Source: a virus | DNA length: 64,000 nt | Strand: one strand, 5' to 3' | IMG/VR virus record: IMGVR_UViG_3300043436_004687 | Coordinates: 259,099 to 323,098 of that record | Shown: one piece after another, positions 3,669 through 57,458 of the stretch | How the letters are laid out: each line of letters begins with the position of its first letter | Position numbering within the stretch: position 1 is the first letter of the stretch | Notes under the pieces: generated by a model | Seen by the model: only the letters and a program-made list of their open reading frames with translations | What the model was told of the DNA's origin: nothing | The model's database searches: none | Translations under genes and position numbers: made by a program

Positions 3669-3790
3669 TACCCACCCCACCAAAGGCGATGAGATGGGCT
3701 TCTTGCACAACGCATAGCCTAATTGCTTACGTTATCGTACAAAGGGTTGTTCCTAACCCCAAAATTCTTTATGTTATATGCAGCGTTTAA
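3643..3790 (-). ncRNA. Putative omega RNA (reRNA) scaffold and guide of TnpB
   Basis: The 3' part of tnpB and the bases after it contain a GC-rich, foldable segment (minus strand AAGCCCATCTCATCGCC then GGTGGGGTGGGTAGTTCAC, ending at 3663). This matches the usual end of IS200/IS605 right-end elements and their guide RNAs. By analogy with known TnpB systems, the next 16-20 nt (3662 downward, starting ACAGATAATCAAGG) would be the guide. The 5' boundary is only approximate. Confidence 0.65.
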
Positions 3791-37253: not shown

Positions 37254-37284
37254 TAAAAAGTGAATTATTTTCAAATATGCGTTA

Positions 37285-37366
37285 TAAAAAAATATAAGGT
37301 AGGTTGGAGTCTACTCTTCCACCTTGTTAGGGTACGCCCTTTGGGAGTTTTGCTCTACCAACACTA
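37285..37366 (-). ncRNA. GTAGACTCC-family small RNA, copy F
   Basis: Non-coding unit starting just after its own -7 box. The 5' end is TAGTGTTGGTAG. An internal CCC-AAA-GGG hairpin comes next, then the conserved core GTAGACTCC (37306-37314, minus), CAACCTACC and a T-run. GGTAG (37355-37359) can pair with CTACC (37298-37302) to form a terminator-like stem. Confidence 0.7.
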
Positions 37367-37398
37367 CAAAGGTATGAATAAAGATCCATATATGCAAA
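37367..37398 (-). promoter_or_regulatory. Promoter of small RNA copy F
   Basis: Minus strand -7 TACCTTTG (37367-37374), -33 TTTG (37395-37398), spacer 20. Confidence 0.8.
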
Positions 37399-37498
37399 TA
37401 AAAAGTGTTAAATTTTTACAAATAAAAAACCCTATTCACTCTGAAGTTTGGAATAGGGTTTTTAAAAACAAATGTTAGTATTAATCAGATAAAACATT
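37383..37498. repeat. 116-bp exact direct repeat, copy 1
   Basis: Identical by eye to 39794-39909. It spans the upstream promoter half of an sRNA unit, a terminator, and the last codons (NVLSD-stop) of the gene 37481-37765. Confidence 0.9.
37425..37463 (-). terminator. Bidirectional rho-independent terminator
   Basis: Stem AAAAACCCTATTC/GAATAGGGTTTTT with a loop of about 13 bases. Ends the 37481 transcript. Copied at 39836-39874 within the 116-bp repeat. Confidence 0.85.
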
Positions 37499-37765
37499 TT
37501 TCTTTTTAGGGTTCAATAAACTATCTATAAATTTATTGAATGTATTTCTTTTGTAGGGTTTGTAATTTATTTCGGTATTGAATAAGGCTTTAAATTTATT
37601 CAATTGGTACTGAATACCCGATTTTTGCAATTTGATAGGATTTTCTTTTTTCAATCTATTTTTGAATGAAATTGAAAATCTTTTTAGGTCGTAATAGCTA
37701 GGAATTATTTGAATGTTTAAAATTCTCAAGCTATATAATTTATAATCGTTTCTAAATGATTTCAT
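37481..37765 (-). CDS. Hypothetical basic protein (94 aa)
   Basis: Very basic (LKRFSISFKNRLKKENPIKL, YKPYKRNTFNKF). Possibly nucleic-acid binding. Its last six codons and terminator are duplicated at 39.9 kb. Confidence 0.75.
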   Translation of the reverse strand: MKSFRNDYKLYSLRILNIQIIPSYYDLKRFSISFKNRLKKENPIKLQKSGIQYQLNKFKALFNTEINYKPYKRNTFNKFIDSLLNPKKKNVLSD

Positions 37766-37768
37766 ATA

Positions 37769-38290
37769 TTAATAATTGTATGAATTAATAAATTTTACAC
37801 AAGCGTTATAAGTCGCATTTATTTTTGATTCATTAAAAGAAAATGAACCACTTTGTATAAATAATTCTCTTTCGTCATTTGGTTCAATTACACAACTATA
37901 ATTTTCTATGTTAACACTATATCCTAAACTTTCAATCTTTTCAACTACTTTCATTAACCAATTCCAGTCAGTATGATATTTAGAATATTTTGCAATACCT
38001 TGAATTACTTTCTCAATATCGTTTTCTCTTATTGAGAAAAAAGGCATATCTGAAAAACTATAAACTCCATCTAATTCACATTTAGGTTTTAAACCAACAA
38101 ATTCGTTTATAATTCTATTATTTTCTTCAATAGTTGGAACAATGTTTAAACTTTCCTTTGCTCTTTCAAGGGTGTTAAAATCTCCGCTTTCAAAGTTTTC
38201 CCCATTTTCAAAGATTCGTGTAAAGAATTTTTTACCTTCTTTAACTACTTGCATATTGTTTTTTTCAAAAACTACTTCTTGTGTGTTCAT
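37769..38290 (-). CDS. WNWLM-family phage protein (173 aa)
   Basis: One of three paralogues (37769, 60486, 61998): INEFVG...TDWNWLMKVVEKIESLGY...INATYNACVKFINSYN. The family is common in Bacteroidota phages. This copy has an extra N-terminal 55 residues. Function unknown. Confidence 0.8.
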   Translation of the reverse strand: MNTQEVVFEKNNMQVVKEGKKFFTRIFENGENFESGDFNTLERAKESLNIVPTIEENNRIINEFVGLKPKCELDGVYSFSDMPFFSIRENDIEKVIQGIAKYSKYHTDWNWLMKVVEKIESLGYSVNIENYSCVIEPNDERELFIQSGSFSFNESKINATYNACVKFINSYNY

Positions 38291-38322
38291 AATGTTTTTT
38301 TGTTATCTTGATTAATACACTA

Positions 38323-38354
38323 CAAAGATATAACTTTATTTTTTAATATGCAAA
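38323..38354 (-). promoter_or_regulatory. Bacteroidota-type promoter with TATTAATCAA leader
   Basis: Minus strand -7 TATCTTTG (38323-38330), -33 TTTG (38351-38354), spacer 20. Drives 37769 and 37481. Confidence 0.85.
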
Positions 38355-38355
38355 T

Positions 38356-38751
38356 TTATTTATTAAAAAATTGTATAATACAACCATTTTGATTAATATT
38401 GTAATTTTGGTTTAATATGGTTGTGTTATTGCTTTTGATTAGTATTGAATTCGTACTAGGTGTATTGTTAGTTATTTTTACTTCAAAATAACCTCTTTTT
38501 AATAAGGAAACATTTATATTCCTTTGAGTTGTTTTCAATAGTGTATCGGGTGTAATTCCGTTATAATCAATTAAGATTAAACTGCTATTGGTTGCACCTT
38601 GCCAATTGATTTGGTTTTGTGTAAATTCGGCTTTCGGTGGTTCGTTTTTAATGTTAACATTTTCGTTATCAGCTGTACAACTTGCCAATAGAAAGATTAA
38701 CGAAAATGCAACTAATTTCATTATCGACAAAGTAAAGAATAATTTTTTCAT
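38356..38751 (-). CDS. Lipoprotein (131 aa)
   Basis: The N-terminus MKKLFFTLSIMKLVAFSLIFLLASC is a type II signal peptide with lipobox LLAS-C, and the acidic residues after the cysteine (TADNEN) fit surface export in Bacteroidota. The mature part is beta-rich. A phage-encoded envelope lipoprotein is a candidate for superinfection exclusion or host-surface change. Translation could also start at the internal MKLVAF. Confidence 0.85.
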   Translation of the reverse strand: MKKLFFTLSIMKLVAFSLIFLLASCTADNENVNIKNEPPKAEFTQNQINWQGATNSSLILIDYNGITPDTLLKTTQRNINVSLLKRGYFEVKITNNTPSTNSILIKSNNTTILNQNYNINQNGCIIQFFNK

Positions 38752-38781
38752 AATATGTATTTTTAATGGTTAATACCTCAA

Positions 38782-38813
38782 CAAAGATATAAATTAATAT
38801 TTTAATATGCAAA
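38782..38813 (-). promoter_or_regulatory. Bacteroidota-type promoter
   Basis: Minus strand -7 TATCTTTG (38782-38789), -33 TTTG (38810-38813), spacer 20; leader GAGGTATTAACC. Drives the lipoprotein. Confidence 0.85.
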
Positions 38814-39143
38814 CTATTTTAGATAATTTTTTTCATAAATATCAAATTGTCCTACAATTGATAATAAGCCGTTTTCATCATTTAAAGTATCTTTGGTAAT
38901 GATTTTACCATCCTTTGATTGATATTGAGTCAAAACGCCTTTAAATTGCTTTATATAATCTATTTCGTTTTCAAATAACCATAAATCATATTCGGGGTTT
39001 GTTGGGTGTTGTAATTCGGTTTTAAATCTATATCCGTGTTGAGTATATTTAACCTCAACAATTAGAGTAGATTTTCCGTTGTATTGTGGATAATGACAAT
39101 TTTTAATAACTACCCTTTCATTTTTATAATCGTATGGTGTCAT
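38814..39143 (-). CDS. Hypothetical protein (109 aa)
   Basis: Small beta-barrel-like protein (NERVVIKNCHYPQYNGKSTLI, VEVKYTQHGYRF). No motif. It lies 1 nt from the upstream gene. Confidence 0.75.
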   Translation of the reverse strand: MTPYDYKNERVVIKNCHYPQYNGKSTLIVEVKYTQHGYRFKTELQHPTNPEYDLWLFENEIDYIKQFKGVLTQYQSKDGKIITKDTLNDENGLLSIVGQFDIYEKNYLK

Positions 39144-39144
39144 A

Positions 39145-39516
39145 TTATTTTGTTATTGGGGTGTAAATGTTGCTATTCATTGCAATTCTGTGAGTTTCTT
39201 GTGTTGCGTGGTCAAAAAATTGTAAGTAACCATTATGTTTATTACTTAACAATTGACAATTTTTATAGGTTGTTGGTGGAAAACCATAACTAGGGTTTAT
39301 ATCTTGTGTTACATCAGCAAAATAGGGCATGAATTTATTGTTAACATCAATTGCATCCTTTGGTGGGTTGCTTGAATATTCCCACAATCTTGATTGAAAT
39401 GCTAATTTGCCATTAGTATCAAAAAATTTACCATCCTTTTCAAATATGTTTGGCATTGGTTCTTTTGTATATAATACTTGACCAATTAAATCGAATTTTA
39501 CTATTTTGAATACCAT
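39145..39516 (-). CDS. Hypothetical protein (123 aa)
   Basis: Beta-rich, FKIVKFDLIGQVLYTKE at the start and HATQETHRIAM near the end. No family recognised. Confidence 0.75.
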   Translation of the reverse strand: MVFKIVKFDLIGQVLYTKEPMPNIFEKDGKFFDTNGKLAFQSRLWEYSSNPPKDAIDVNNKFMPYFADVTQDINPSYGFPPTTYKNCQLLSNKHNGYLQFFDHATQETHRIAMNSNIYTPITK

Positions 39517-39518
39517 AA

Positions 39519-39620
39519 TTATATTTGAATTAAGGTTAAAACTATTAATGATAAGAATGTAAGCAAAGCAATGTTTACTTTAGTTTGAATTTCTTTTGAT
39601 GCTTTTTTAGTTGTTGCCAT
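39519..39620 (-). CDS. Micro-protein with C-terminal membrane span (33 aa)
   Basis: MATTKKASKEIQTKVN followed by a hydrophobic span (IALLTFLSLIVLTLIQI). Directly behind a promoter, first gene of 39519-38814. Confidence 0.65.
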   Translation of the reverse strand: MATTKKASKEIQTKVNIALLTFLSLIVLTLIQI

Positions 39621-39652
39621 CGTTATAATAATGTTTGTTGATTAATACACTA

Positions 39653-39684
39653 CAAAGATATAAAATAATATTTACTTATCCTAA
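39653..39684 (-). promoter_or_regulatory. Bacteroidota-type promoter with TATTAATCAA leader
   Basis: Minus strand -7 TATCTTTG (39653-39660); -33 variant TTAG (39681-39684), spacer 20. Confidence 0.75.
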
Positions 39685-39712
39685 TAAAATGTGTTAAAAT
39701 TTTCAACCTTAT

Positions 39713-39777
39713 AAAAAAAATATAAGGTTGGTTGGAGTCTACGTCTCAACTTTTCTCGTTTGCTTTGTATTACTATG
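39713..39777 (-). ncRNA. GTAGACTCC-family small RNA, copy G
   Basis: Core GTAGACTCC (39734-39742, minus), then CAACCAACCTTATA and a T8 run at 39713-39720. The 5' half is diverged (ATAGTAATACAAAGC) and lacks the GGTAG arm, so its fold may differ. Confidence 0.6.
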
Positions 39778-39809
39778 TAAAGGTACAACAAAGGATCCAT
39801 ATATGCAAA
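39778..39809 (-). promoter_or_regulatory. Promoter of small RNA copy G
   Basis: -7 TACCTTTA (39778-39785, last base off consensus), -33 TTTG (39806-39809), spacer 20. Partly inside the 116-bp repeat. Confidence 0.6.
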
Positions 39810-39909
39810 TAAAAAGTGTTAAATTTTTACAAATAAAAAACCCTATTCACTCTGAAGTTTGGAATAGGGTTTTTAAAAACAAATGTTAGTATTAATCAGA
39901 TAAAACATT
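39794..39909. repeat. 116-bp exact direct repeat, copy 2
   Basis: Second copy of 37383-37498. Here the NVLSD codons have no gene upstream of them, so they are a duplicated gene end. Confidence 0.9.
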
Positions 39910-39917
39910 CGATTTTA

Positions 39918-40274
39918 AAAATAGGGAATAGTTTTCTCACCCTATTATGATTGAAACTTTAATATCATCCGACAATGGCGCACATATTGGCAAATCGGAA
40001 TTAAATCAATCTTTGACAAAACCACCTATCTAGTTTTTATCTTCTCTTTGAGCCGTGTGAAATCAGTTAATATAAAACGGCATTTGATAGGAATTTAAAA
40101 TAAACCATTGTGTTAAGTTGCGTACACTACTACTTGCAATATTAATAAGATTTTAAACACTTGTAATCCTAGTCTTCTTTATGGTTTATTATTTTTTAAA
40201 ATGAAAGGTAAGTCTTGATGTCTTACGTTAATTCGTTTTATGATGGCTTGCTTACAACCCTCTCATTTCTTTTA
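39918..40274 (-). ncRNA. Structured non-coding transcript of about 350 nt
   Basis: A perfect promoter (40275-40306) fires into 350 nt with no ORF longer than about 13 codons, ending in a hairpin ATAGGG-N13-CCCTAT plus T-rich tail (39912-39945). Internal pairings include AATAAACCAT/ATGGTTTATT (long range), GCCGT/ACGGC, TTGC/GCAA, TCCGA/TCGGA and GTAAG/CTTAC. It does not match tmRNA, RNase P or 6S by eye. Confidence 0.65.
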
Positions 40275-40306
40275 CAAAGGTAATTCTTTTATTTTAAACT
40301 ACCAAA
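40275..40306 (-). promoter_or_regulatory. Promoter of the 350-nt non-coding transcript
   Basis: Minus strand -7 TACCTTTG (40275-40282), -33 TTTG (40303-40306), spacer 20. Confidence 0.8.
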
Positions 40307-40315
40307 TATTTTTTG

Positions 40316-40453
40316 TTAAATTTTCAATAAAGTTTTACATTCTAAACCAAATGAATTGTTTATAAAAACCTCTTTCATTTGATATTTTCTACCATTCTTT
40401 AATTGGAATTTATCCAATGCGTCTTGACTTTTAAATTCTTTTATGAATGTCAT
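40316..40453 (-). CDS. Small hypothetical protein (45 aa)
   Basis: MTFIKEFKSQDALDKFQLKNG, basic and helical. It follows 40455-40706 by 1 nt and ends just before the promoter of the non-coding transcript. Confidence 0.65.
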   Translation of the reverse strand: MTFIKEFKSQDALDKFQLKNGRKYQMKEVFINNSFGLECKTLLKI

Positions 40454-40454
40454 A

Positions 40455-40706
40455 TTAAATAAATTTTCGTATGTTGTCAGCCTCTTTTTTATATTCAGAA
40501 GTTTTGATTTTATATTCTGAACATACGTCTTCTAAAATTGTCAAAGCCAACAAAGAATTATGTTTTAAGAATTCGCTATCTGAACCAATAGCACCGCTAT
40601 TTAAAGCACGTTCTAATTTCTTGAATGCGTTTTCTTCAATATCTTTTAACATTTGTTTTACTCTTACTTTGGAGTATCTTAATGCAGTTTTTTTAGTATT
40701 GTCCAT
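40455..40706 (-). CDS. Hypothetical helical protein (83 aa)
   Basis: Charged, almost all-helical (KVRVKQMLKDIEENAFKKLE). No motif. Its antisense frame is a shadow. Confidence 0.73.
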   Translation of the reverse strand: MDNTKKTALRYSKVRVKQMLKDIEENAFKKLERALNSGAIGSDSEFLKHNSLLALTILEDVCSEYKIKTSEYKKEADNIRKFI

Positions 40707-40733
40707 AATGTATTTTGATTAATATTTCTTTAG

Positions 40734-40765
40734 CAAAGATATGAATTAATATTTAAACTACCAAA
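40734..40765 (-). promoter_or_regulatory. Bacteroidota-type promoter with ATTAATCAA leader
   Basis: -7 TATCTTTG (40734-40741), -33 TTTG (40762-40765), spacer 20. Drives 40455 and 40316. Confidence 0.85.
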
Positions 40766-40774
40766 TAAAAAATG

Positions 40775-41086
40775 TTAAAGTTTTCTATAATCAAAATTAA
40801 TAAGGGAATTGCCTCTTGCTCTCTTTTGAATCATTGGTAAAAATCCAGCACTAAAATAAGGATATTGCCTTTCTAATTCTTTGAATTTTTTTGTACGTCT
40901 ATCTAACTTTTCAATTACAATATGTACCTTTAATTCAAAATAATCAAATATGTTAACATTCAAATCAGCAATTTCCTGGCTTTCAAACATTGTACTATTG
41001 CATTGTCTATTGGTAAGATTTTCTTTTGCGTTAAGCATAATAAATGTATCTCTACCTATCTGAACTAAACTAAATACTTTTTTCAT
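40775..41086 (-). CDS. Hypothetical protein (103 aa)
   Basis: Begins KKVFSLVQIGRDTFIMLNAKEN, an alpha/beta core, and ends RARGNSLINFDYRKL. Single-gene unit. Function unknown. Confidence 0.74.
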   Translation of the reverse strand: MKKVFSLVQIGRDTFIMLNAKENLTNRQCNSTMFESQEIADLNVNIFDYFELKVHIVIEKLDRRTKKFKELERQYPYFSAGFLPMIQKRARGNSLINFDYRKL

Positions 41087-41116
41087 TTTGTTTTTATTTA
41101 TTTGATTAATACACTA

Positions 41117-41148
41117 CAAAGATATGAATTTATATTTTAATATCCTAA
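41117..41148 (-). promoter_or_regulatory. Bacteroidota-type promoter with TATTAATCAA leader
   Basis: -7 TATCTTTG (41117-41124); -33 variant TTAG (41145-41148), spacer 20. Drives 40775-41086. Confidence 0.75.
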
Positions 41149-41152
41149 CAAA

Positions 41153-41371
41153 TTATGATAAACTTTTAGCGCAAAAGCTTTCTTTTACATCTTCAAAGTT
41201 TCTTTCAATTAATTCTATAGTTACATTTAAAATATAACGTTCATCCGTTTCTTTGTTTCCACATCTTAACCAAGTTGAAACATTTTCAGCATCAATCGCA
41301 ACTATAAATAAATCCCAATTAATACCACTACTAAATGTAATTTGTAATCTATATTTATGTGCTTTTTTCAT
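41153..41371 (-). CDS. Hypothetical protein (72 aa)
   Basis: Small alpha/beta protein (KYRLQITFSSGINWDLFIVA). Single-gene unit with its own promoter. Confidence 0.73.
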   Translation of the reverse strand: MKKAHKYRLQITFSSGINWDLFIVAIDAENVSTWLRCGNKETDERYILNVTIELIERNFEDVKESFCAKSLS

Positions 41372-41402
41372 TTTGTTTTTTATTATCTTGATTAATACAC
41401 TA

Positions 41403-41434
41403 CAAAGATATGAATTAATATCTTATAAAACAAA
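41403..41434 (-). promoter_or_regulatory. Bacteroidota-type promoter with TATTAATCAA leader
   Basis: -7 TATCTTTG (41403-41410), -33 TTTG (41431-41434), spacer 20. Drives 41153-41371. Confidence 0.85.
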
Positions 41435-41476
41435 TAAATTATCATTTATTTTTATTTGAAATTTTAACACTTTTTA

Positions 41477-41508
41477 TTTGGTGGTTTAAAATATATTTTG
41501 TACCTTTG
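41477..41508 (+). promoter_or_regulatory. Promoter of small RNA copy A
   Basis: Plus strand -33 TTTG (41477-41480), -7 TACCTTTG (41501-41508), spacer 20. Divergent from the 41403 promoter. Confidence 0.8.
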
Positions 41509-41592
41509 TTATGTTGAAAGATACAAACAAAGAAAGTAATGAAAATTATTGATACGTAGACTCCGTCACACCCATATATGAAATATTTTTTT
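41509..41592 (+). ncRNA. GTAGACTCC-family small RNA, copy A
   Basis: Core GTAGACTCC (41556-41564) and a T7 run (41586-41592). The 31-36 nt leading into the core (AAAGAAAGTAATGAAAATTA...) are identical to copy D. Its 3' half (GTCACACCC) is diverged and the GGTAG arm is missing. Confidence 0.65.
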
Positions 41593-41603
41593 AAAAGCAT
41601 AAA

Positions 41604-41630
41604 AAATCCGTATTATAATAATACGGATTT
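41604..41630. terminator. Bidirectional terminator
   Basis: Stem AAATCCGTATTA/TAATACGGATTT with a three-base loop and A/T runs. Ends the 41642 transcript and can back up sRNA copy A. Confidence 0.88.
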
Positions 41631-41641
41631 TTAAATATAAT

Positions 41642-41980
41642 TTAGTATGTAAAATTTCTCGTTCTACCTAAAAGAGTATAACGGCTTTTATCGCCTAAAT
41701 AAGTCAATTGTACATTAACAACCATTCTTACAATATCCTCAAAACTTCCACTAGTAAAAGAAACATCTTTCAAACTACCAATTGAAAATTTAACCTTGAT
41801 AGTTAACACTTCGCAATATTCGGTTTTAGTTGCTTTGATTGTATATTTTACATTCAATTCTTTTAAATAGTCTTTAACGTTTCCATTGTACTGAAGTGTT
41901 TTACTTCCCATATTCCACCAATGGATTAATAAATTTGACTTTAAAATTCTTTCTATTTCTCTTTTGTTGTATGGTTCCAT
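41642..41980 (-). CDS. Hypothetical protein (112 aa)
   Basis: Mixed alpha/beta: HWWNMGSKTLQYNGNVKDYL then a beta region. Single-gene unit between a promoter and a terminator. Confidence 0.74.
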   Translation of the reverse strand: MEPYNKREIERILKSNLLIHWWNMGSKTLQYNGNVKDYLKELNVKYTIKATKTEYCEVLTIKVKFSIGSLKDVSFTSGSFEDIVRMVVNVQLTYLGDKSRYTLLGRTRNFTY

Positions 41981-42011
41981 AATATTTTTATGTTATTTGA
42001 TTAATACACTA

Positions 42012-42043
42012 CAAAGATATAAAATAATATTTACATACGCAAA
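42012..42043 (-). promoter_or_regulatory. Bacteroidota-type promoter with TATTAATCAA leader
   Basis: -7 TATCTTTG (42012-42019), -33 TTTG (42040-42043), spacer 20. Drives 41642-41980. Confidence 0.85.
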
Positions 42044-42055
42044 TAAAAATGCAAA

Positions 42056-42087
42056 AAAAAATCCATTATTTTCATAATGGATTTTTA
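42056..42087. terminator. Bidirectional terminator
   Basis: Stem AAAAATCCATTA/TAATGGATTTTT with loop TTTTCA. Ends the 42113 transcript. Confidence 0.88.
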
Positions 42088-42112
42088 GACGTTTTAAGCA
42101 ACGTTATTAGAT

Positions 42113-42667
42113 TTAATGACTACTAACTCTAAATGGTTGGAAATCTTTAACCTCAAAGCTTTTAATTGCATCCACATCCAATTTAACTTCATTGAATAAA
42201 TTCAATGTTGGATTGTTTGCACCCTCAACCATTTTTTTAACGCTTGCATCATACAAAGGAATCAAGTCTTCAACCTTAGCACCGCAATAGATAACATTTG
42301 CTTTCATATCTAGCTTAGACATTGCAATATATGTAACATACAAATATTTAATTTCATCTTGACTAAACAAATCGAAATTTTCAGCTAAAAAATCACTTGC
42401 TCGGTTTAATTCTTTTGCACCATTCAAAGAAAATGCAGTAGTTTTAATATGATTGTTTTCATCATAGAATCTAACTAAAAATTGAGAATAGGTAGATTTT
42501 TTAGGTTTGTTTTTTAATCCAGTTTTTGGATTGATAGTTTGCGTTACGTGACGATAACCCTTCTTTTTATCGAATTCAATTGAATCAAACAAAGTAGTTC
42601 TAGCTGTGTAACCATAAGGATAATTTTCTACTTCTACTACTTCTGATGTTGGGATAAATTTTCTCAT
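42113..42667 (-). CDS. Hypothetical protein (184 aa)
   Basis: A beta-rich N-terminal half with a basic segment (NPKTGLKNKPKKSTYS) is followed by a helical half. No family recognised. Confidence 0.77.
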   Translation of the reverse strand: MRKFIPTSEVVEVENYPYGYTARTTLFDSIEFDKKKGYRHVTQTINPKTGLKNKPKKSTYSQFLVRFYDENNHIKTTAFSLNGAKELNRASDFLAENFDLFSQDEIKYLYVTYIAMSKLDMKANVIYCGAKVEDLIPLYDASVKKMVEGANNPTLNLFNEVKLDVDAIKSFEVKDFQPFRVSSH

Positions 42668-42697
42668 TTTGTTTTATGTTATTTGATTAATACACTA

Positions 42698-42729
42698 CAA
42701 AGATATAAATTAATATTTACTTATGCAAA
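42698..42729 (-). promoter_or_regulatory. Bacteroidota-type promoter with TATTAATCAA leader
   Basis: -7 TATCTTTG (42698-42705), -33 TTTG (42726-42729), spacer 20. Drives 42113-42667. Confidence 0.85.
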
Positions 42730-42730
42730 T

Positions 42731-42970
42731 TTATTTTGAATTAATTTTGATATTTGAATGAATAAAATAATTGTTATTATCTTTCAATCTCAATTTTCTC
42801 AATTTCATAATACAAATATTTGGAATATCTGAAATGTGGATAATTTTATAATGATTGTTATTAATTCGTTTTAATAATAAAGTAGGGTTTGGATTAAATA
42901 TTTCATTAATTGAATTGAAAGAACCATTTGGAATACCTACAAAAATATGTGAATTTTTAAATTTTCTCAT
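42731..42970 (-). CDS. Hypothetical protein (79 aa)
   Basis: Isoleucine/asparagine-rich small protein (NPTLLLKRINNNHYKIIHIS). No motif. Confidence 0.72.
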   Translation of the reverse strand: MRKFKNSHIFVGIPNGSFNSINEIFNPNPTLLLKRINNNHYKIIHISDIPNICIMKLRKLRLKDNNNYFIHSNIKINSK

Positions 42971-42998
42971 TTGAATTATGTTCTTGATTAATACACTA

Positions 42999-43030
42999 CA
43001 AAGATATAAAATAAAATGTTACAATCCTAA
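42999..43030 (-). promoter_or_regulatory. Bacteroidota-type promoter with TATTAATCAA leader
   Basis: -7 TATCTTTG (42999-43006); -33 variant TTAG (43027-43030), spacer 20. Drives 42731-42970. Confidence 0.75.
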
Positions 43031-43059
43031 TAAAAAAATGAATTATTTTTTATTTAAAA

Positions 43060-43091
43060 TTTGTGTATATGGATTTTTATTTGTACCTTTG
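43060..43091 (+). promoter_or_regulatory. Promoter of small RNA copy B
   Basis: Plus strand -33 TTTG (43060-43063), -7 TACCTTTG (43084-43091), spacer 20. Confidence 0.82.
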
Positions 43092-43174
43092 TAGTGTTGG
43101 TAGTGAAAACTGAAACGGGTTACTAATCAAAAATTAGTCAGAGGGTGGACTCCGACCTACCTTATATTTTTTTT
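43092..43174 (+). ncRNA. GTAGACTCC-family small RNA, copy B
   Basis: 5' TAGTGTTGGTAG, internal hairpin ACTAAT-CAAAA-ATTAGT, core GTGGACTCC (43145-43153), GACCTACC and a T8 run. The GGTAG (43099-43103)/CTACC (43157-43161) stem sits before the T-run. No ORF. Confidence 0.72.
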
Positions 43175-43195
43175 AAAAAAAACTGAAGACAAAAA

Positions 43196-43224
43196 AACCA
43201 TATAAATTTCTTATATGGTTTTTT
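43196..43224. terminator. Bidirectional terminator
   Basis: Stem AACCATATAA/TTATATGGTT with A and T runs. Beyond it, 43225-43316 holds no gene that I can support. Confidence 0.85.
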
Positions 43225-43316
43225 AATTTATTATTTTCGATCTCTATTTTATTAAGTATATATTATTTATAGTTACCTATTCGGGTGGTGCTTTATTTCT
43301 ATCCATCTTTAAATTA

Positions 43317-43598
43317 TTAATCAGCGTTCAAAACTTCTAAATTGTAACCAATGTTTTCTAATTCGTTAAACAAATCTTTGTATTGTTCTTTGGTTGCATC
43401 CTTGCAATTGTTTTTGATAAAATCAGAATGACAAATTGAGTGTTGCCCTAAATTAGCATAACAATCAAATCCATTATCTTTATTTGGCATTTCTGGGAAT
43501 ACTGCCAAAACCTCGCTAAATGGTTGTTCATCCAATTCACTTGGTGTATATGTAGCAATGTAAAATTGTACTTTGGTAATTTCTGTATCTTTTTTCAT
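43317..43598 (-). CDS. Hypothetical protein (93 aa)
   Basis: VQFYIATYTPSELDEQPFSEV then a cysteine-containing middle (FDCYANLGQHSICHSD). No family recognised. Confidence 0.74.
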   Translation of the reverse strand: MKKDTEITKVQFYIATYTPSELDEQPFSEVLAVFPEMPNKDNGFDCYANLGQHSICHSDFIKNNCKDATKEQYKDLFNELENIGYNLEVLNAD

Positions 43599-43628
43599 TT
43601 TGTTTTTATTTATTTGATTAATACACTA

Positions 43629-43660
43629 CAAAGATATGAATTTATATTTTAATATCCTAA
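43629..43660 (-). promoter_or_regulatory. Bacteroidota-type promoter with TATTAATCAA leader
   Basis: -7 TATCTTTG (43629-43636); -33 variant TTAG (43657-43660), spacer 20. Drives 43317-43598. Confidence 0.75.
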
Positions 43661-43671
43661 TAAAATATCAA

Positions 43672-44004
43672 TTATTTTCTAAAACCATTTAAAAGTTCAT
43701 CTAGTAAAATATAACCTACTCCGATAAATGGTAAACCGCTATTTGGTTCGTAGTTATAATTGTATTGTAGTCTAATTTGCAATTCATTATTTTTATCTAA
43801 TAAGAAATTTTGAAATCTACTAAATCCAGTAATTGATTTTTTAAGAATTTCGTTTACTTCTTTATCAGCTTTTTTTTCTTCATCTGTAAAATCACTTCTT
43901 TTTATTCCTTCATAACCTTTATTTTGAAGTGTTAATGATGGAAAATTTTTATAAATTTCTAATAAAGTTGAATGTTGCTCCTTAGTTAATAAATTGATTT
44001 TCAT
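43672..44004 (-). CDS. Hypothetical protein (110 aa)
   Basis: Helical first half and a GLPFIGVGYILLDELL end. No motif. Single-gene unit. Confidence 0.74.
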   Translation of the reverse strand: MKINLLTKEQHSTLLEIYKNFPSLTLQNKGYEGIKRSDFTDEEKKADKEVNEILKKSITGFSRFQNFLLDKNNELQIRLQYNYNYEPNSGLPFIGVGYILLDELLNGFRK

Positions 44005-44035
44005 AATGATTTTATTTATCTTGATTAATACACTA

Positions 44036-44067
44036 CAAAGATATAAATTAATATTTAGATATACAAA
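44036..44067 (-). promoter_or_regulatory. Bacteroidota-type promoter with TATTAATCAA leader
   Basis: -7 TATCTTTG (44036-44043), -33 TTTG (44064-44067), spacer 20. Drives 43672-44004. Confidence 0.85.
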
Positions 44068-44068
44068 T

Positions 44069-44362
44069 TTATTTTACTTTATTTTCACTATATAATTTTT
44101 TCGCTTTATATTGATAACTACCAAAAGAAACAATATGTTTTTCTACTAAATTATGAATAGTTGCATTATTACTTTCACAAGCTTTTGACAACCTACCTAT
44201 AAAAACCTTATAAGTTAAAGCACCATTATTAAAATCCTCAATTGATTTTCTTGCTTTCCAATAGTTTTGATTTTCAGTAGTTCCGTGATTTTCATTTGGA
44301 AAAAATCTACTAGTTACTTCCGTAGCCACCTTATTGAAAAAATCTTCTGTTGTATGTATCAT
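44069..44362 (-). CDS. Hypothetical protein (97 aa)
   Basis: Mostly helical; contains HGTTENQNYWKARKSIEDF. The pattern resembles a phage family with a VGRLSKAC-like helix, but no function is known. Confidence 0.74.
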   Translation of the reverse strand: MIHTTEDFFNKVATEVTSRFFPNENHGTTENQNYWKARKSIEDFNNGALTYKVFIGRLSKACESNNATIHNLVEKHIVSFGSYQYKAKKLYSENKVK

Positions 44363-44392
44363 AATATTTTATTTATCTTGATTAATATGATA

Positions 44393-44424
44393 CAAAGATA
44401 TAAAATAATATTTTAATATTCTAA
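44393..44424 (-). promoter_or_regulatory. Bacteroidota-type promoter with ATTAATCAA leader
   Basis: -7 TATCTTTG (44393-44400); -33 variant TTAG (44421-44424), spacer 20. Drives 44069-44362. Confidence 0.75.
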
Positions 44425-44477
44425 TAAAATATGTTAAAATTTAATCATAAAATATTTTAAAAATAATTGTATTTTTA

Positions 44478-44509
44478 TTTGGTAGTTTAAAATAATTGTC
44501 GTACCTTTG
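44478..44509 (+). promoter_or_regulatory. Promoter of small RNA copy C
   Basis: Plus strand -33 TTTG (44478-44481), -7 TACCTTTG (44502-44509), spacer 20. Confidence 0.82.
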
Positions 44510-44593
44510 TAGTGTTGGTGGTGATAACCGAAACAGGCTCCTACAATTCTTTTGCGGGCGGAGGGTGGACTCCGACCTACCTTATATTTTTTT
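44510..44593 (+). ncRNA. GTAGACTCC-family small RNA, copy C
   Basis: 5' TAGTGTTGGTGG, core GTGGACTCC (44565-44573), GACCTACC and a T7 run. GGTGG (44517-44521) still pairs with CTACC (44577-44581) through a G-U pair, so the arm is kept despite the base change. CTCC...GGAG forms an inner stem. Confidence 0.72.
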
Positions 44594-44609
44594 AAAAAAA
44601 AAGATATAA

Positions 44610-44641
44610 AAAAATTCCATATATTAACTATATGGAATTTT
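44610..44641. terminator. Bidirectional terminator
   Basis: Stem AAATTCCATATA/TATATGGAATTT with loop TTAAC (approximate) and A/T runs. Ends the 44659 transcript. Confidence 0.85.
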
Positions 44642-44658
44642 CAAAACCAAACCAAAAC

Positions 44659-45264
44659 CTATTTAACCAATCTTAAAAAATCATCCAATTTACTACCACA
44701 TCTTAAAGTAATTTTTTCGTAAACATGACCATTGTCCCCAATCTCAAAAAAGTATTCAACGTCTTCAGTTCTCAAGCTACCCTTTTTACCACCTTTAACG
44801 CTATTGTGAACCTCTAAACCAGTGTTTTGTATTCTAGTTAAAAACGCATTTGTTTTTTCATCAATTTCGTTTTGTTCAATGTTTTTTAAAACCTCAACCG
44901 CTTGCAAATAACTTAACCAATCATCCATTTTTTTAATGGTTGGTTTACCTACTTTGTTAGGCATAACTAAATCGTGCTTTATATCAGTTTTTGAACCATT
45001 AAGTAAAGAAAACTCGAAACTAGTTTCGTTGTAACGCTTAAATGGTCTTAACAAAATACCTTTAAACTCAACATATACATCAATAATATCGTGGTAATTT
45101 TTTATTTGTTCAATATCATTTTTAACATCTAAATAAGGAATAATTTTTACAATCCCTTCAAAGTGTTTTAAACTATCTAATTTTTCTTTTAAATATTTTT
45201 CACTATATTCAGTTAAAATGTAACCTTCTTTTTTTGCTTGCTCTAATGTAATTTGATTTTTCAT
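44659..45264 (-). CDS. Hypothetical protein (201 aa)
   Basis: Helical and beta segments; EDVEYFFEIGDNGHVYEKITLR near the C-terminus. No family recognised. Single-gene unit. Confidence 0.77.
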   Translation of the reverse strand: MKNQITLEQAKKEGYILTEYSEKYLKEKLDSLKHFEGIVKIIPYLDVKNDIEQIKNYHDIIDVYVEFKGILLRPFKRYNETSFEFSLLNGSKTDIKHDLVMPNKVGKPTIKKMDDWLSYLQAVEVLKNIEQNEIDEKTNAFLTRIQNTGLEVHNSVKGGKKGSLRTEDVEYFFEIGDNGHVYEKITLRCGSKLDDFLRLVK

Positions 45265-45295
45265 AATTAAATAATGTTTGTTGATTAATACATAG

Positions 45296-45327
45296 CAAAG
45301 ATATAAATTAATATTTACATATACAAA
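45296..45327 (-). promoter_or_regulatory. Bacteroidota-type promoter with TATTAATCAA leader
   Basis: -7 TATCTTTG (45296-45303), -33 TTTG (45324-45327), spacer 20. Drives 44659-45264. Confidence 0.85.
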
Positions 45328-45349
45328 TAAAATATGTTAAAATTTCAAA

Positions 45350-45838
45350 TTAATCTATACCCCAACCACATTCGTCATACTCATTACTATTTTTGCAAAT
45401 ATAACAAGCAATTACATTAATAATTTCATTTAAAAATAACATAGCATTTTCTTCTAATTCTGTCAAATTTCTAATATCAGTTATATGCTCAACTTCAATT
45501 TGATAATCTAAACATTGTAATTGTTTAAATAAATTAATTGGACTCAATTTAAAAATAGGAGTTTTTTCAAAAACTTGTAAATTTTCCTTTGCAATTTCAG
45601 CATCTAAAACACCCTCGTAATGATGCTTATATTGAAGTGTAACTGCCAATACATTAATTTTTCTTAACTCATCAACAATCAAATCAATTTCATTTTGCCA
45701 ATCATTTTTTTTGTTGACAATGTTTTCAAATTTTTCTTTCAATTCATAAGGCAAATAAAAATTAGATTTTGAAATTAATACTTTCAATGATTCAGCAATT
45801 GAATTAAAATGTTTCGGACTGCAAATGTAACTAGACAT
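45350..45838 (-). CDS. Hypothetical protein (162 aa)
   Basis: Starts SSYICSPKHFNSIAESLK. The centre NVLAVTLQYKHHYEGVLDAEI and the end CYICKNSNEYDECGWGID are typical of a small family in Bacteroidota mobile elements. Function unknown. Confidence 0.78.
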   Translation of the reverse strand: MSSYICSPKHFNSIAESLKVLISKSNFYLPYELKEKFENIVNKKNDWQNEIDLIVDELRKINVLAVTLQYKHHYEGVLDAEIAKENLQVFEKTPIFKLSPINLFKQLQCLDYQIEVEHITDIRNLTELEENAMLFLNEIINVIACYICKNSNEYDECGWGID

Positions 45839-45868
45839 AATATTTTATTTTTATTGATTAATACCTTA

Positions 45869-45900
45869 CAAAGATATAAAATAATATCTTAATAAACAAA
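45869..45900 (-). promoter_or_regulatory. Bacteroidota-type promoter with TATTAATCAA leader
   Basis: -7 TATCTTTG (45869-45876), -33 TTTG (45897-45900), spacer 20. Drives 45350-45838. Confidence 0.85.
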
Positions 45901-45909
45901 CTTTAAATG

Positions 45910-46116
45910 TTAAATTTTTGAAATTTCACTTGGACTTAATCTAACATCTTTTTTACAATCAGTAGTACCATATACAAACGAACCTCTTTTCATTGGATAT
46001 GGTGGAAATGATTTAATAACAAATTCAGTACCCATTGCAATTTTTTCTTTATAGTCAAAACTCTCTACTAAAGTTTTACATCTATCTCCAACTTTAAAAC
46101 CTTTATAACTTAACAT
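45910..46116 (-). CDS. Small SH3-like protein (68 aa)
   Basis: FKVGDRCKTLVESFDYKEKIAMGTEFVIKSFPPYP is the pattern of small SH3-like beta barrels of phages. Follows 46120-46269 by 3 nt. Confidence 0.72.
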   Translation of the reverse strand: MLSYKGFKVGDRCKTLVESFDYKEKIAMGTEFVIKSFPPYPMKRGSFVYGTTDCKKDVRLSPSEISKI

Positions 46117-46119
46117 AAT

Positions 46120-46269
46120 TTAATCGTTTAAATGTTCAAATACATCGTTGGTACTCATTCCCATAGTACGAGGAAAATTAATATATTGTAAGTCATTATT
46201 TTCATCAATATAACTAAATATATCGTTAACCTCATTACTTCTCACAAATTGAATATTACTTGCTTTCAT
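46120..46269 (-). CDS. Hypothetical protein (49 aa)
   Basis: Start set at MKASNIQFVRSNEVND (46269), because the longer frame runs across the promoter. Acidic, no motif. Confidence 0.7.
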   Translation of the reverse strand: MKASNIQFVRSNEVNDIFSYIDENNDLQYINFPRTMGMSTNDVFEHLND

Positions 46270-46297
46270 TTTTTTATCTTTATTGATTAATACACTA

Positions 46298-46329
46298 CAA
46301 AGATATAAATAAAATTCCATATAAACAAA
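46298..46329 (-). promoter_or_regulatory. Bacteroidota-type promoter with TATTAATCAA leader
   Basis: -7 TATCTTTG (46298-46305), -33 TTTG (46326-46329), spacer 20. Drives 46120 and 45910. Confidence 0.85.
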
Positions 46330-46382
46330 TAAATTAATATCTTTTTTACAATAAAAATAATTTGAAATTTTAACACTTTTTA

Positions 46383-46414
46383 TTTGTATATTCAAAAAAC
46401 AATTTGTACCTTTG
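46383..46414 (+). promoter_or_regulatory. Promoter of small RNA copy D
   Basis: Plus strand -33 TTTG (46383-46386), -7 TACCTTTG (46407-46414), spacer 20. Confidence 0.82.
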
Positions 46415-46493
46415 TAGTGTTGGTAGAGAATATCCCAAAAGAAAGTAATGAAAATTATTGATACGTAGACTCCAACCTACCTTATATTTTTTT
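46415..46493 (+). ncRNA. GTAGACTCC-family small RNA, copy D
   Basis: 5' TAGTGTTGGTAG, core GTAGACTCC (46465-46473), CAACCTACC and a T7 run (46487-46493). GGTAG (46422-46426) pairs with CTACC (46477-46481). An inner GTAAT-GAAA-ATTAT hairpin lies just before the core, in sequence shared with copy A. Confidence 0.72.
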
Positions 46494-46507
46494 ATAAAGA
46501 TATAAAA

Positions 46508-46536
46508 AAATATTCCATACATTATATGGAATATTT
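46508..46536. terminator. Bidirectional terminator
   Basis: Stem AATATTCCATA/TATGGAATATT with loop CATTA. Ends the 46550 transcript. Confidence 0.83.
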
Positions 46537-46549
46537 AAAAACATATTAA

Positions 46550-46831
46550 TTAATATATTAATTCTTTTATAAATTTAAAATCCTTATCAAATTTAACTAA
46601 CTTTTCTTTATTGGTTAAACTATTGATAATACCACAATCTAAAGTATAAGAGTTTTTATTTTTGTAAACTCTTGCCTTATGTAAAAATATCTTTGTTTTA
46701 GATAATAAACTATCTAAAGCATAATATCTATTTTTTTCTAAATAGATATGAACATAACCCAATTTTTGCAATCCCTCTTTACTATTATTAGCTTGTACCA
46801 AAATAGTGTTTTCTAAATTTGTGAAATACAT
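46550..46831 (-). CDS. Hypothetical protein (93 aa)
   Basis: Basic alpha/beta protein (SKTKIFLHKARVYKNKNSYTL). Single-gene unit. No motif. Confidence 0.74.
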   Translation of the reverse strand: MYFTNLENTILVQANNSKEGLQKLGYVHIYLEKNRYYALDSLLSKTKIFLHKARVYKNKNSYTLDCGIINSLTNKEKLVKFDKDFKFIKELIY

Positions 46832-46860
46832 AATATTTTACTTTATCGATTAATACACTA

Positions 46861-46892
46861 CAAAGATATAAAATAATATCTTATAAAACAAA
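46861..46892 (-). promoter_or_regulatory. Bacteroidota-type promoter with TATTAATC leader
   Basis: -7 TATCTTTG (46861-46868), -33 TTTG (46889-46892), spacer 20. Drives 46550-46831. Confidence 0.85.
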
Positions 46893-46934
46893 TAAAAATC
46901 AATAAAAAATAAATTAAAAATAATTGCATTTTTA

Positions 46935-46966
46935 TTTGCATATCTAAAATTTTATTCGTACCTTTG
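46935..46966 (+). promoter_or_regulatory. Promoter of small RNA copy E
   Basis: Plus strand -33 TTTG (46935-46938), -7 TACCTTTG (46959-46966), spacer 20. Confidence 0.8.
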
Positions 46967-47040
46967 TTATATACAAAGCAAGGGAGCAAACCTGAGAAGT
47001 AGACTCCACCCTACAATAAACTCAACTTATTTATAACAAG
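46967..47040 (+). ncRNA. GTAGACTCC-family small RNA, copy E (degenerate)
   Basis: Core GTAGACTCC (46999-47007) followed by ACCCTAC. There is no T-run and no GGTAG arm, so the 3' end is uncertain and the transcript may read on. Weakest member of the family. Confidence 0.5.
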
Positions 47041-47674: not shown

Positions 47675-48184
47675 ATGGGTAGAAATATGGAAGTTAGAAA
47701 AAAATATTTAGAAGCTAATAAAGAAAAAATAAAAGAACAAAAGAAAATTCGTTATGAAGCTAATAAAGAAAAAATAAAAGAATATCAAAAAAATTATCGT
47801 ATAAATAATAAAGAAAAAATAAATAATTATTATAAACGAAAAAGAAGTGAGGATGAATTGTATAAATTAAAAGGAAATACAAGAAATTTAGTCAAAAATT
47901 CACTTAAAGGTTTTTTTAAAAACATATATAGAACAGAAGAAATCTTAGGTTGTACACTAGAAGATTTTAAATTACACTTAGAATCAAAATTCGAATCATG
48001 GATGAATTGGGGTAATTATGGTATCTGTAATGGTGAATTAAATTATGGATGGGATATTGACCATGTTATACCAATATCGAGTGCTAAAACATTAGATGAC
48101 GTATATCGTTTAAATCATTATACTAACCTACAACCATTATGTAGTTATACTAATAGATATATAAAAAGGGATAGCTACACATAA
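47675..48184 (+). CDS. HNH homing-type endonuclease
   Basis: 169 aa. An N-terminal basic repeat region (YEANKEKIKE-like units) resembles DNA-binding repeats of homing enzymes. A C-terminal HNH module follows: FESWMNWGNYGI, YGWDIDHVIPIS, HYTNLQPLCSYTNRYIKRD. DH and the later H and N residues are present. TATTTATAAT lies 21 nt upstream. Probably selfish. Confidence 0.88.
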   Translation: MGRNMEVRKKYLEANKEKIKEQKKIRYEANKEKIKEYQKNYRINNKEKINNYYKRKRSEDELYKLKGNTRNLVKNSLKGFFKNIYRTEEILGCTLEDFKLHLESKFESWMNWGNYGICNGELNYGWDIDHVIPISSAKTLDDVYRLNHYTNLQPLCSYTNRYIKRDSYT

Positions 48185-53431: not shown

Positions 53432-53463
53432 CAAAGATATAAAATAAAATGTTATAAAACAAA
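53432..53463 (-). promoter_or_regulatory. Bacteroidota-type promoter with TATTAATCA leader
   Basis: -7 TATCTTTG (53432-53439), -33 TTTG (53460-53463), spacer 20. The -33 lies within the end of 53452-54192. Confidence 0.82.
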
Positions 53464-54192
53464 TATTTCTTGAATAATTTTATTTAATTTTTCAACTTCA
53501 TTTGGAATTGGTTGATTATCATTCATATAAAGTTTACGATTTATTTCAATCATAACACTATTAACATTTTTATTTATGTTAAAATGCTCTAATGGGACAA
53601 TAGTTCCTTCATAAGGGTCATTTATCTTTACTGAATAACCTTTCAAAGTAAAAATGCACACCAACCTATCTAATAACCAATTTGGGGTATGGAATTTATC
53701 AAAACCTATACAAATATCAGGTCTGCTATTATCTTGCTTTAAATCACTTAAAAATGGTTTATCAGAAAAACTATGGCAATCAATAATAGTACAAAATCCC
53801 TCTTCTTTAAGTTTATGATTTACCATATCATTAAATAATTTATGATGTGGTTTATAATAATTTTGATAAATATGATTTTTAAATTCCTTATCTGTACTTC
53901 TTAAAGTTAAACCACTATCAGTTTTGGTATAGAAAAACCCTCGCCCAAATTGGAACATTGGTTCAATATCATCAGAAAGTCTTTCAACATCACAAAATAT
54001 TCTACTAAATGGTGTTATTATCTTTGAAGTGTTTGGAACATTGAAAATTTTATCCGTATCATGGTCAGTAAGCAATTGTAATTCCTTATGAACAAGCGAC
54101 CAATCATAACCATCAGTTAATGGTATATGTGTTGATGAATGTGGAATATGGAATATAAGACTATTTAAAATATTTTCTTGGAACATAATCAT
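53452..54192 (-). CDS. N-formylglutamate am​idohydrolase-like protein
   Basis: 246 aa. Motifs of the FGase family (PF05013-like): IFHIPHSSTHIP (13-24), DHDTDKIF (43-50), RIFCDVERL, CTIIDCHSFSDKPF and SVMIEINRKLYM. The histidines, aspartates and glutamate expected at the zinc site are present. The bacterial enzyme hydrolyses N-formyl-glutamate in histidine breakdown. No Hut gene is nearby, so in the phage the substrate may be another formyl- or acyl-amino acid or a peptidoglycan-like bond. The family call is good. Confidence 0.82.
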   Translation of the reverse strand: MIMFQENILNSLIFHIPHSSTHIPLTDGYDWSLVHKELQLLTDHDTDKIFNVPNTSKIITPFSRIFCDVERLSDDIEPMFQFGRGFFYTKTDSGLTLRSTDKEFKNHIYQNYYKPHHKLFNDMVNHKLKEEGFCTIIDCHSFSDKPFLSDLKQDNSRPDICIGFDKFHTPNWLLDRLVCIFTLKGYSVKINDPYEGTIVPLEHFNINKNVNSVMIEINRKLYMNDNQPIPNEVEKLNKIIQEIFVL

Positions 54193-56237: not shown

Positions 56238-57458
56238 ATGATATTAGCTGAATCACATATAATAAATAAATCAAATAAACTATATTCTAGTTGTGATTCG
56301 CTATGTTTTAAATCAAAAAACCTATATAATTATGGAATGTATTTAGTTAATAGTGAATACAAATCAAGTGGTAAATATCTATCATATAATGAGTTGGATA
56401 AACTATTAAGAGATTCTAAACAATTTGATTATTTGCAATTAAAACAGAAGGTAGCTCAACAAACCTTAATGTTATTAGATAAAAATTATAAATCCTATTT
56501 TAAAGCATTAAAAAGTTATAATACTAACCCATCTAAATTCACTGGTAAACCACAATTACCTAAGTATTTAAATAAATTAAAAGGTAGGTTTGTAACTACA
56601 TTTACAAACCAAACAATATCTTTAAAAGAATTAAAAAAAGGGTATATTTTATTAAGTGGAACTGATATTAAAATAAAAAGCGATAAACAACCTAAACAAG
56701 TTAGAGTATTACAATTAAATACTGGTAGTTATAAAATTGAAATATTGTATGAAAAACTAGAATATCCATTAACTATAAATGATAACTATTGTGGTATTGA
56801 TTTGGGTTTAGATAATTTAGCTACATGTGTAACTAATACCAAGTTAGACCCATTTATAATAAATGGTAAACCACTTAAATCAATAAACCAATATTATAAT
56901 AAACAATTAGCAAAATATAAGTCTGAATTACCTAAATATAAATTAAATAGTGTAATAAAACAAAAAAATATAAGTAAAAAAATAAGTAAATTAACACATA
57001 AACGGAATTGTAAAATAATGGATTATCTTCATAAAGGTAGTCGATTAATTACAAATAAATTGAAACAAAACGATATTAGTAAAGTTGTAATTGGTCAAAA
57101 TAAAGACTGGAAACAAAATATTAATATTGGCAATAAAAATAATCAAAATTTTGTTTCAATCCCACATAGCAAATTCATTGAATTAATAACCTATAAATGT
57201 AAATTAGAGGGTATTGATGTAATAGTTAGAGAAGAAAGTTATACTAGTAAGTGTAGTTTTTTAGATGGTGAAATTGTGAAAAAACATGATAAATATAAGG
57301 GTAGTAGAGTGAAGAGAGGTTTATTTAAAACTAGTACTGGTTTTAAATGGAATGCTGATTGCAATGGTGCTTGTAATATATTAATAAAGGAAGTTCCAAA
57401 TGCGTATGCTAATGGAATAGAGGGTGTTGTAGTTCACCCATTAAAATATAATTGTTAA
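56238..57458 (+). CDS. tnpB: TnpB-family protein with rearranged catalytic glutamate
   Basis: 406 aa. RuvC-I D188 lies in CGIDLGLDNLA. At the usual RuvC-II site the sequence is VVIGQNKDW with glycine (G286) instead of glutamate. A candidate replacement, E333, lies in VREESYTSK, 47 residues on. The third aspartate D374 is in WNADCNGACNIL. This alternative-glutamate layout is known from eukaryotic Fanzor proteins and a related TnpB subset. The ending (PNAYANGIEGVVVHP) is typical of the IS1341/IS607-like group. No classical four-cysteine ribbon and no transposase gene are seen. A TATTTATAAG motif lies 30 nt upstream. Confidence 0.9.
   Translation: MILAESHIINKSNKLYSSCDSLCFKSKNLYNYGMYLVNSEYKSSGKYLSYNELDKLLRDSKQFDYLQLKQKVAQQTLMLLDKNYKSYFKALKSYNTNPSKFTGKPQLPKYLNKLKGRFVTTFTNQTISLKELKKGYILLSGTDIKIKSDKQPKQVRVLQLNTGSYKIEILYEKLEYPLTINDNYCGIDLGLDNLATCVTNTKLDPFIINGKPLKSINQYYNKQLAKYKSELPKYKLNSVIKQKNISKKISKLTHKRNCKIMDYLHKGSRLITNKLKQNDISKVVIGQNKDWKQNINIGNKNNQNFVSIPHSKFIELITYKCKLEGIDVIVREESYTSKCSFLDGEIVKKHDKYKGSRVKRGLFKTSTGFKWNADCNGACNILIKEVPNAYANGIEGVVVHPLKYNC

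Follow-up and report, generated by a model that had tools for sequence, protein, structure and literature searches.

A 64,000-nucleotide (nt) stretch of the virus record IMGVR_UViG_3300043436_004687 (IMG/VR; positions 259,099 to 323,098), hereafter the window, harbors seven short intergenic units built around the core GTRGACTCC (Table 1). A preliminary description, made from the letters alone, had taken them for a family of short non-coding RNAs, each with a host-type promoter, and all seven are indeed present at the sites it gave. Shuffled sequences lead to an expectation of 0.10 cores, with none of 100 shuffles reaching seven, and GTRGACTCC does not recur elsewhere in the whole 339,635-base record, which bears out the claimed restriction to 37–47 kb. 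Upstream of each core, at a distance of 32–55 nt, each unit has a promoter of the Bacteroidota type, TTTG-N-TACCTTTG/A. The proposed continuation of the core into RACCTACC and a T-run is exact in four units (37306, 43145, 44565 and 46465), whereas the remaining three possess different tails (AACCAACC at 39734, ACCCTACA at 46999 and GTCACACC at 41556), and neighboring units lie 0.5–2.4 kb apart, not always within the suggested 1.5–2 kb.

Units 3 and 6 have a 36-nt stretch in common that runs from the hairpin to the core; unit 3 is nevertheless missed by the covariance model R1 (see below). Units 1 and 2 share an exact 116-bp upstream repeat, so that one of them is a recent cassette duplication, and in unit 2 the tail, T-run and anti-tail form a perfect inverted repeat. 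A single open reading frame (ORF) of at least 60 amino acids is listed over the window units, on the opposite strand (37260–37478, +). Just upstream of unit 2, approximately 380 bp without a good ORF (39905–40285, −) follow a TACCTTTG promoter; this segment folds no better than shuffled sequence (z −0.46) and has no convincing relative among annotated phages.

Table 1. Units and associated repeat in the window (CM R1, E value of the unit with covariance model R1).
Feature	Position	Strand	Core	Hairpin and tail	Promoter	CM R1
RNA unit 1	37285–37362	−	37306–37314	P3 hairpin ACCCUAACAAGGU, tail AACCUACCUUAUA + T-run	−7 box 37367–37374, −33 box 37395–37398	5.7e-13
RNA unit 2	39715–39773	−	39734–39742	variant tail AACCAACC	−7 box 39778–39785, −33 box 39806–39809	0.0013
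RNA unit 3	41513–41590	+	41556–41564	hairpin AGUAAU-GAAA-AUUAUU, tail GTCACACCCATATA	41477–41508	
RNA unit 4	43096–43175	+	43145–43153, GTGGACTCC	P3 ACUAAU-CAAAA-AUUAGU, tail GACCUACCUUAUA + T-run	43060–43091	2.1e-07
RNA unit 5	44514–44596	+	44565–44573, GTGGACTCC	tail GACCUACCUUAUA + T-run	44478–44509	1.2e-05
RNA unit 6	46419–46495	+	46465–46473	tail AACCUACCUUAUA + T-run	46383–46414	0.00026
RNA unit 7	46971–47020	+	46999–47007	hairpin AGG-GAGCAAA-CCU, tail ACCCUACAAUAAA, no T-run	46935–46966	0.0013
116-bp direct repeat	37383–37498 (copy 39794–39909)			upstream terminator and −33 region of units 1 and 2		

Distribution and anatomy of the RNA family

The units almost certainly belong to a large viral RNA family, with about 40 records carrying 1–13 copies each. 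An exact IMG/VR scan with GTRGACTCCRACCTACC gave 33 stretches on about 20 contigs, almost all with the same anatomy and several per contig, and the family grew further when other variants of the core and tail were scanned for. The phages that carry a sub-family of the form GGUUCG-stem-CGCAGAGG-GUAGACUCC reach 344 kb, and several have a G+C content of 40–46%. Isolated phages are among the carriers as well, namely Tenacibaculum phage Larrie with four units and the Cellulophaga phages phiST (NC_020842, 76445 and 78280), phi13:1 and phi19:2 with two each, while a 634-kb metagenomic phage has one and the record G001 has 13 within 40 kb (by pattern plus promoter). The covariance model R1, which was built from 21 equal-length units, matches every record from the first scans (1–12 units per record) and 18 of 20 later records. 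One match, in G007 from the first record set, probably arose by chance in coding DNA, and pattern hits in L010, L026, L030, L035, L125, L126, L130, L139, L144 and L146 were set aside as coding or unrelated. Most of the viral records may be fragments, and copy numbers are lower bounds; several records are near-duplicates and the independent lineages are thus fewer than the records, roughly 15–20 by our estimate. Most prominent among the carriers is a single lineage whose major head protein is of the T4 type. Larrie and phiST are members of the genus Cbastvirus, and Larrie has few proteins in common with the main lineage.

In bacteria and archaea, two pattern scans over 84,980 genomes (GTDB, one genome per species) gave no hit, the second using a pattern with approximately 60 sites in the viral set, and plasmids likewise gave none. 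As far as these patterns tell, the family appears to be restricted to viruses; diverged host copies could escape them. The claim that the units resemble no known RNA family agrees with our searches: Rfam 15 yielded nothing at gathering score for the window and five relative-bearing loci and only sub-threshold matches in E-value mode (E about 0.2–5), ARAGORN called no transfer RNA or transfer-messenger RNA anywhere in the window, nor at any of the units, and searches of the literature turned up no account of such a family.

From 5' to 3', a unit consists of a promoter, an optional 5' hairpin, usually GG(G), the hairpin P3, RAGR, GURGACUCC and a 3' tail. The promoter has the Bacteroidota form TTTG-N17-23-TAnnTTTG/A and was present in full (a TTTG-like −33 box and a −7 box, correctly spaced) in 19 of 30 distinct units from the first scan, which was blind to promoters, compared with 0.22 expected; most of the remaining units in this set have a −7 box that is one letter off. 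L013, L027 and L034 carry GTATAAT in place of the −7 box, TGTAAC-N18-19-CGTATAAT replacing the usual promoter, and share a 3' hairpin around TTTAGA..TCTAAATAAG. Hairpins are favored in the leader (score 6.7 vs 4.9 shuffled).

P3 comprises 4–8 pairs, and roughly four nt separate its end from the core. Units diverge strongly in the letters of this hairpin but keep its pairing: in an ungapped alignment that was not fitted to the helix, the covariation score is 0.542, in contrast to 0.245±0.035 for shuffled and 0.04–0.14 for slid versions. An alignment of 93 distinct rows, which was fitted to P3, contains 160 two-sided changes compared with 59 after shuffling, and its outermost pair is CG in 52 rows and UA in 32. 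Compensatory changes hence preserve a helix, as is expected of a structured RNA. Together with the private promoters and about 40 further carriers, this covariation upholds the proposal of one non-coding scaffold with variable parts. The core, in turn, is invariant while scaffold and tail vary; ACUCC is found in 122 of 122 rows, a figure to be read with the fact that most of the patterns by which the units were found contain ACUCC.

About 58% of tails are RAC-CURC-like, about 26% RAC-ACG(U/C)-like, and the rest are of the GUU.., AUG.. and other types. GUAG could pair with the CURC tail around an 8-nt loop, ACUCCRAC, and the four pairs are kept in 61 units, but the helix is unproven because there are zero two-sided changes; a corresponding register in class-2 units is not supported. 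A helix P1 between the 5' leader and the 3' tail was rejected (8.60 observed vs 8.85 shuffled), as was pairing of GGG with CUCC, which is unsupportable since CUCC stays constant when GGG becomes GUG, GCA or AAA.

The preliminary description had also envisaged variable parts on a common scaffold, which it placed between promoter and core, and had treated the tail as almost constant. The scaffold with variable parts stands, yet the module-like part is the 3' tail rather than the hairpin. A comparison of 83 distinct units (17 records) shows scaffolds to be more similar within than between phage lineages (z 12.8), whereas tails show this only weakly (z 2.1), and the classes RAC-CURC, RAC-ACGUC and GUU.. 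recur in unrelated phages. At an orthologous locus in three related phages, upstream of a gene that we take, from our own reading of its sequence, to be DUF932-like, the unusual AUG-type tail is kept next to three different hairpins.

Some units carry additional elements. GUU-type double units (L029 5455, −; L131 305–345, +; L069 16739, +) continue with a second hairpin (GCAAC..GUUGC) and then directly a second UAGACUCC, and the two phiST units (L169 8470–8560 and 10300–10390) share an extra element, GCACCCUCNCNCCUUCGGRUC, 3' of the core.

Genomic context and possible function

The units cluster in regions of small genes without assigned function, where they are intergenic on both strands and often oriented against their neighbors; 78 of 90 overlap no ORF of at least 60 amino acids, and often the promoter of a unit adjoins that of the adjacent gene. 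With this placement they are neither leaders nor gene terminators, as a terminator would lie behind a gene on its strand and lack a promoter of its own. Terminators of longer coding transcripts, named at the outset as the finding that would undo the RNA family, are thereby excluded. Pfam gave no convincing match for ten proteins that neighbor the window units, and no protein family is common to all carriers: apart from widespread genes for nucleotide metabolism and methyltransferases, Larrie and the main lineage share only an SprT-like metalloprotease, and the DUF932-like neighbor is frequent but not universal. The hexamers GGAGTC/GACTCC are depleted outside the units (113 seen vs 217 expected in 17 carrier records); as they contain GANTC, avoidance of restriction or methylation is possible.

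Our preferred reading, held tentatively and at somewhat less than even chances, is that the units are stand-alone genes from which lytic Bacteroidota phages make small structured RNAs of a new family, and that these RNAs act in trans as decoys or modulators in host takeover. They would be transcribed early by the host RNA polymerase, and the variable P3 hairpin would present the strand on its 3' flank, the invariant RAGR-GURGACUCC, with a short exchangeable tail behind it. A conserved host factor, either an RNA-binding protein or a component of the ribosome or of RNA turnover, may recognize this strand, so that abundant RNAs could serve as decoys or modulators. Many diverged copies would provide dosage without mutual loss by recombination, and the tail may tune activity or add specificity. 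The partner is placed in the host because a role in cis fits badly with the position and orientation of the units, a phage-encoded partner fits badly with the absence of a protein shared by all carriers, and targets in the phages' own leaders are not enriched. With an invariant strand beside a hairpin of free sequence, either a host protein could recognize the strand or a host RNA could pair with it; protein sponge and antisense to host RNA, both among the roles first suggested, may still apply. The mechanism as a whole can be inferred only weakly. For a host protein decoy, to which we give roughly one chance in three, it can be said that core and tail vary independently and that no pairing target stands out, which puts it slightly ahead of pairing. 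Two observations weigh against it: in thermodynamic folding the core does not stand out as accessible, and the recurrence of a few tail classes in unrelated phages is not explained by a protein decoy alone and fits base-pairing better.

Conceivably, though with lower probability, the units are instead multicopy antisense small RNAs (sRNAs) in which GURGACUCC and partly the tail pair with host messenger RNAs (mRNAs) or a conserved host RNA. Seeds typically take the form of an unbroken invariant stretch next to a hairpin, and the recurring tails are in line with such a role. Moreover, GUAGACUCCAA is complementary over 11 nt, with one G-U pair, to E. coli 16S ribosomal RNA (rRNA) 1307–1317 in h42. 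This match is within chance (0.5–3.5% for 16S alone and about 1–10% for all rRNA, depending on the length taken), was one of several places examined, and would require h42 to open. The independent variation of core and tail also argues against pairing, and complementary sites are not enriched in phage gene leaders and genomes, which leaves antisense action on the phage's own leaders unsupported. Mimicry of rRNA was rejected, the best match of CM R1 on the E. coli rRNA operon being non-significant (E 0.33), as was a likeness to 5S rRNA, where the shared match AGAGUAG is within chance.

The antisense proposal has a parallel in the closest known counterpart, the FopS sRNAs of Bacteroides thetaiotaomicron, which are 14 paralogous intergenic sRNAs of 65–70 nt, most with a sigma-ABfr promoter, that are bound by the RRM protein RbpB and base-pair with susC-type mRNAs; one phage copy is recorded by the authors (PMC11697453). 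Shared with the phage units are the Bacteroidota background, the presence of several paralogues, the promoter type and, going by the predicted length of the unit RNAs, size. In contrast, FopS are chromosomal, while the units are absent from the bacterial genomes searched, and the 35-nt FopS seed consensus GTGTTTTTCATAGTATTAGATTTAAGGTTAACAAA lacks the GURGACUCC core, the phage units having a hairpin and then RAGRGURGACUCC; the R1' seed GTGTTTTTCATAGTATTAG... is not seen in the listed units. Because of this different sequence and the chromosomal location of FopS, the units are not assigned to that family; an antisense mode of working may still be shared. LhrC of Listeria and Qrr of Vibrio, each with several similar sRNAs per genome, are host-encoded and linked to Hfq or Shine-Dalgarno sequences, with C-rich loop motifs in LhrC. 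Both of these sibling sRNA families are named in the FopS study (PMC11697453) and are multicopy like the phage units, but no sequence or structural relation is seen in Rfam. Likewise non-coding, of unassigned role and in part phage-carried are the large RNAs GOLLD and ROOL (structures described in PMC12286853), which measure hundreds of nt compared with about 60–90 nt for the multicopy phage units.

In a further reading, which we regard as improbable, one structured scaffold with exchangeable 3' address tails, common to unrelated phages, would steer a host-encoded RNA-binding machine (for example ribosome, RNase or RNA polymerase) to several conserved host targets. Slightly more doubtful still are decoys for bacterial RNA-sensing or RNA-based defence, that is, mimics of antitoxin RNAs or CRISPR repeats. 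The phage restriction, the multiple copies, the location in accessory regions and an anti-Gabija protein in the same window would suit them, but Rfam contains no match to a known RNA of this sort and GTDB, at pattern level, no similar host RNA.

Guides for an effector, with the tails selecting different targets, are very unlikely. The lineage-bound scaffold with tail classes that recur in unrelated phages would be compatible with them, and two TnpB genes lie in the window. However, the guide idea of the preliminary description is weakened as regards a phage-encoded partner by the lack of a protein common to the carriers, Larrie sharing almost none with the main lineage. The tails, furthermore, are few and conserved, unlike diverse spacers, and TnpB omega-RNAs adjoin tnpB and CRISPR guides have an adjacent effector and a unique guide per copy, whereas the units lie next to small genes and not beside tnpB, and their tails recur.

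We deem equally unlikely that the units are cis elements, i.e. transcription terminators, put-like antitermination sites or R-loop replication origins, as the combination of promoter, short RNA, T-run and A/T-rich context could suggest. A T-run follows the RNA in 33 of 63 class-1 units, whereas most class-2 units lack one, and terminators downstream of the units barely exceed the control (32 vs 24 of 109). The put RNA of phage HK022, one of the phage RNAs that act on RNA polymerase, is short and structured, lies immediately behind an early promoter and acts in cis on a long operon; the units have a similar promoter-proximal structure but stop right away and often point away from genes, so that there is nothing to antiterminate. 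Up to 13 copies within 40 kb would be odd for origins, and the pairing of P3 is conserved as RNA.

New here are the RNA family and the multicopy habit in phages, whose small RNAs are otherwise few and mostly single. That unrelated lytic phages keep up to 13 copies would mark a host component that many Bacteroidota phages handle by RNA. Since phiST, phi13:1, phi19:2 and Larrie can be grown on hosts in culture, a host factor bound by the core GUAGACUCC can be tested for at once. If the antisense alternative holds, the units would be a new variant of sibling sRNAs.

Other genes in the window

Apart from the units, the window encodes the above-mentioned Gad1-like anti-Gabija protein (13738–14862, −; Pfam PF25705, E 3.7e-75) and two TnpB proteins (OrfB_IS605 / Cas12f1-like TNB; 3719–4837, −, and 56238–57458, +) in one phage. 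Further products are a small repetitive protein with EANKEKIKE-type repeats (47675–48184, +), an N-formylglutamate amidohydrolase-like protein (53452–54192, −), a zeta-toxin-like kinase (59479–60312, −) and a GIY-YIG homing endonuclease (62770–63594, +).

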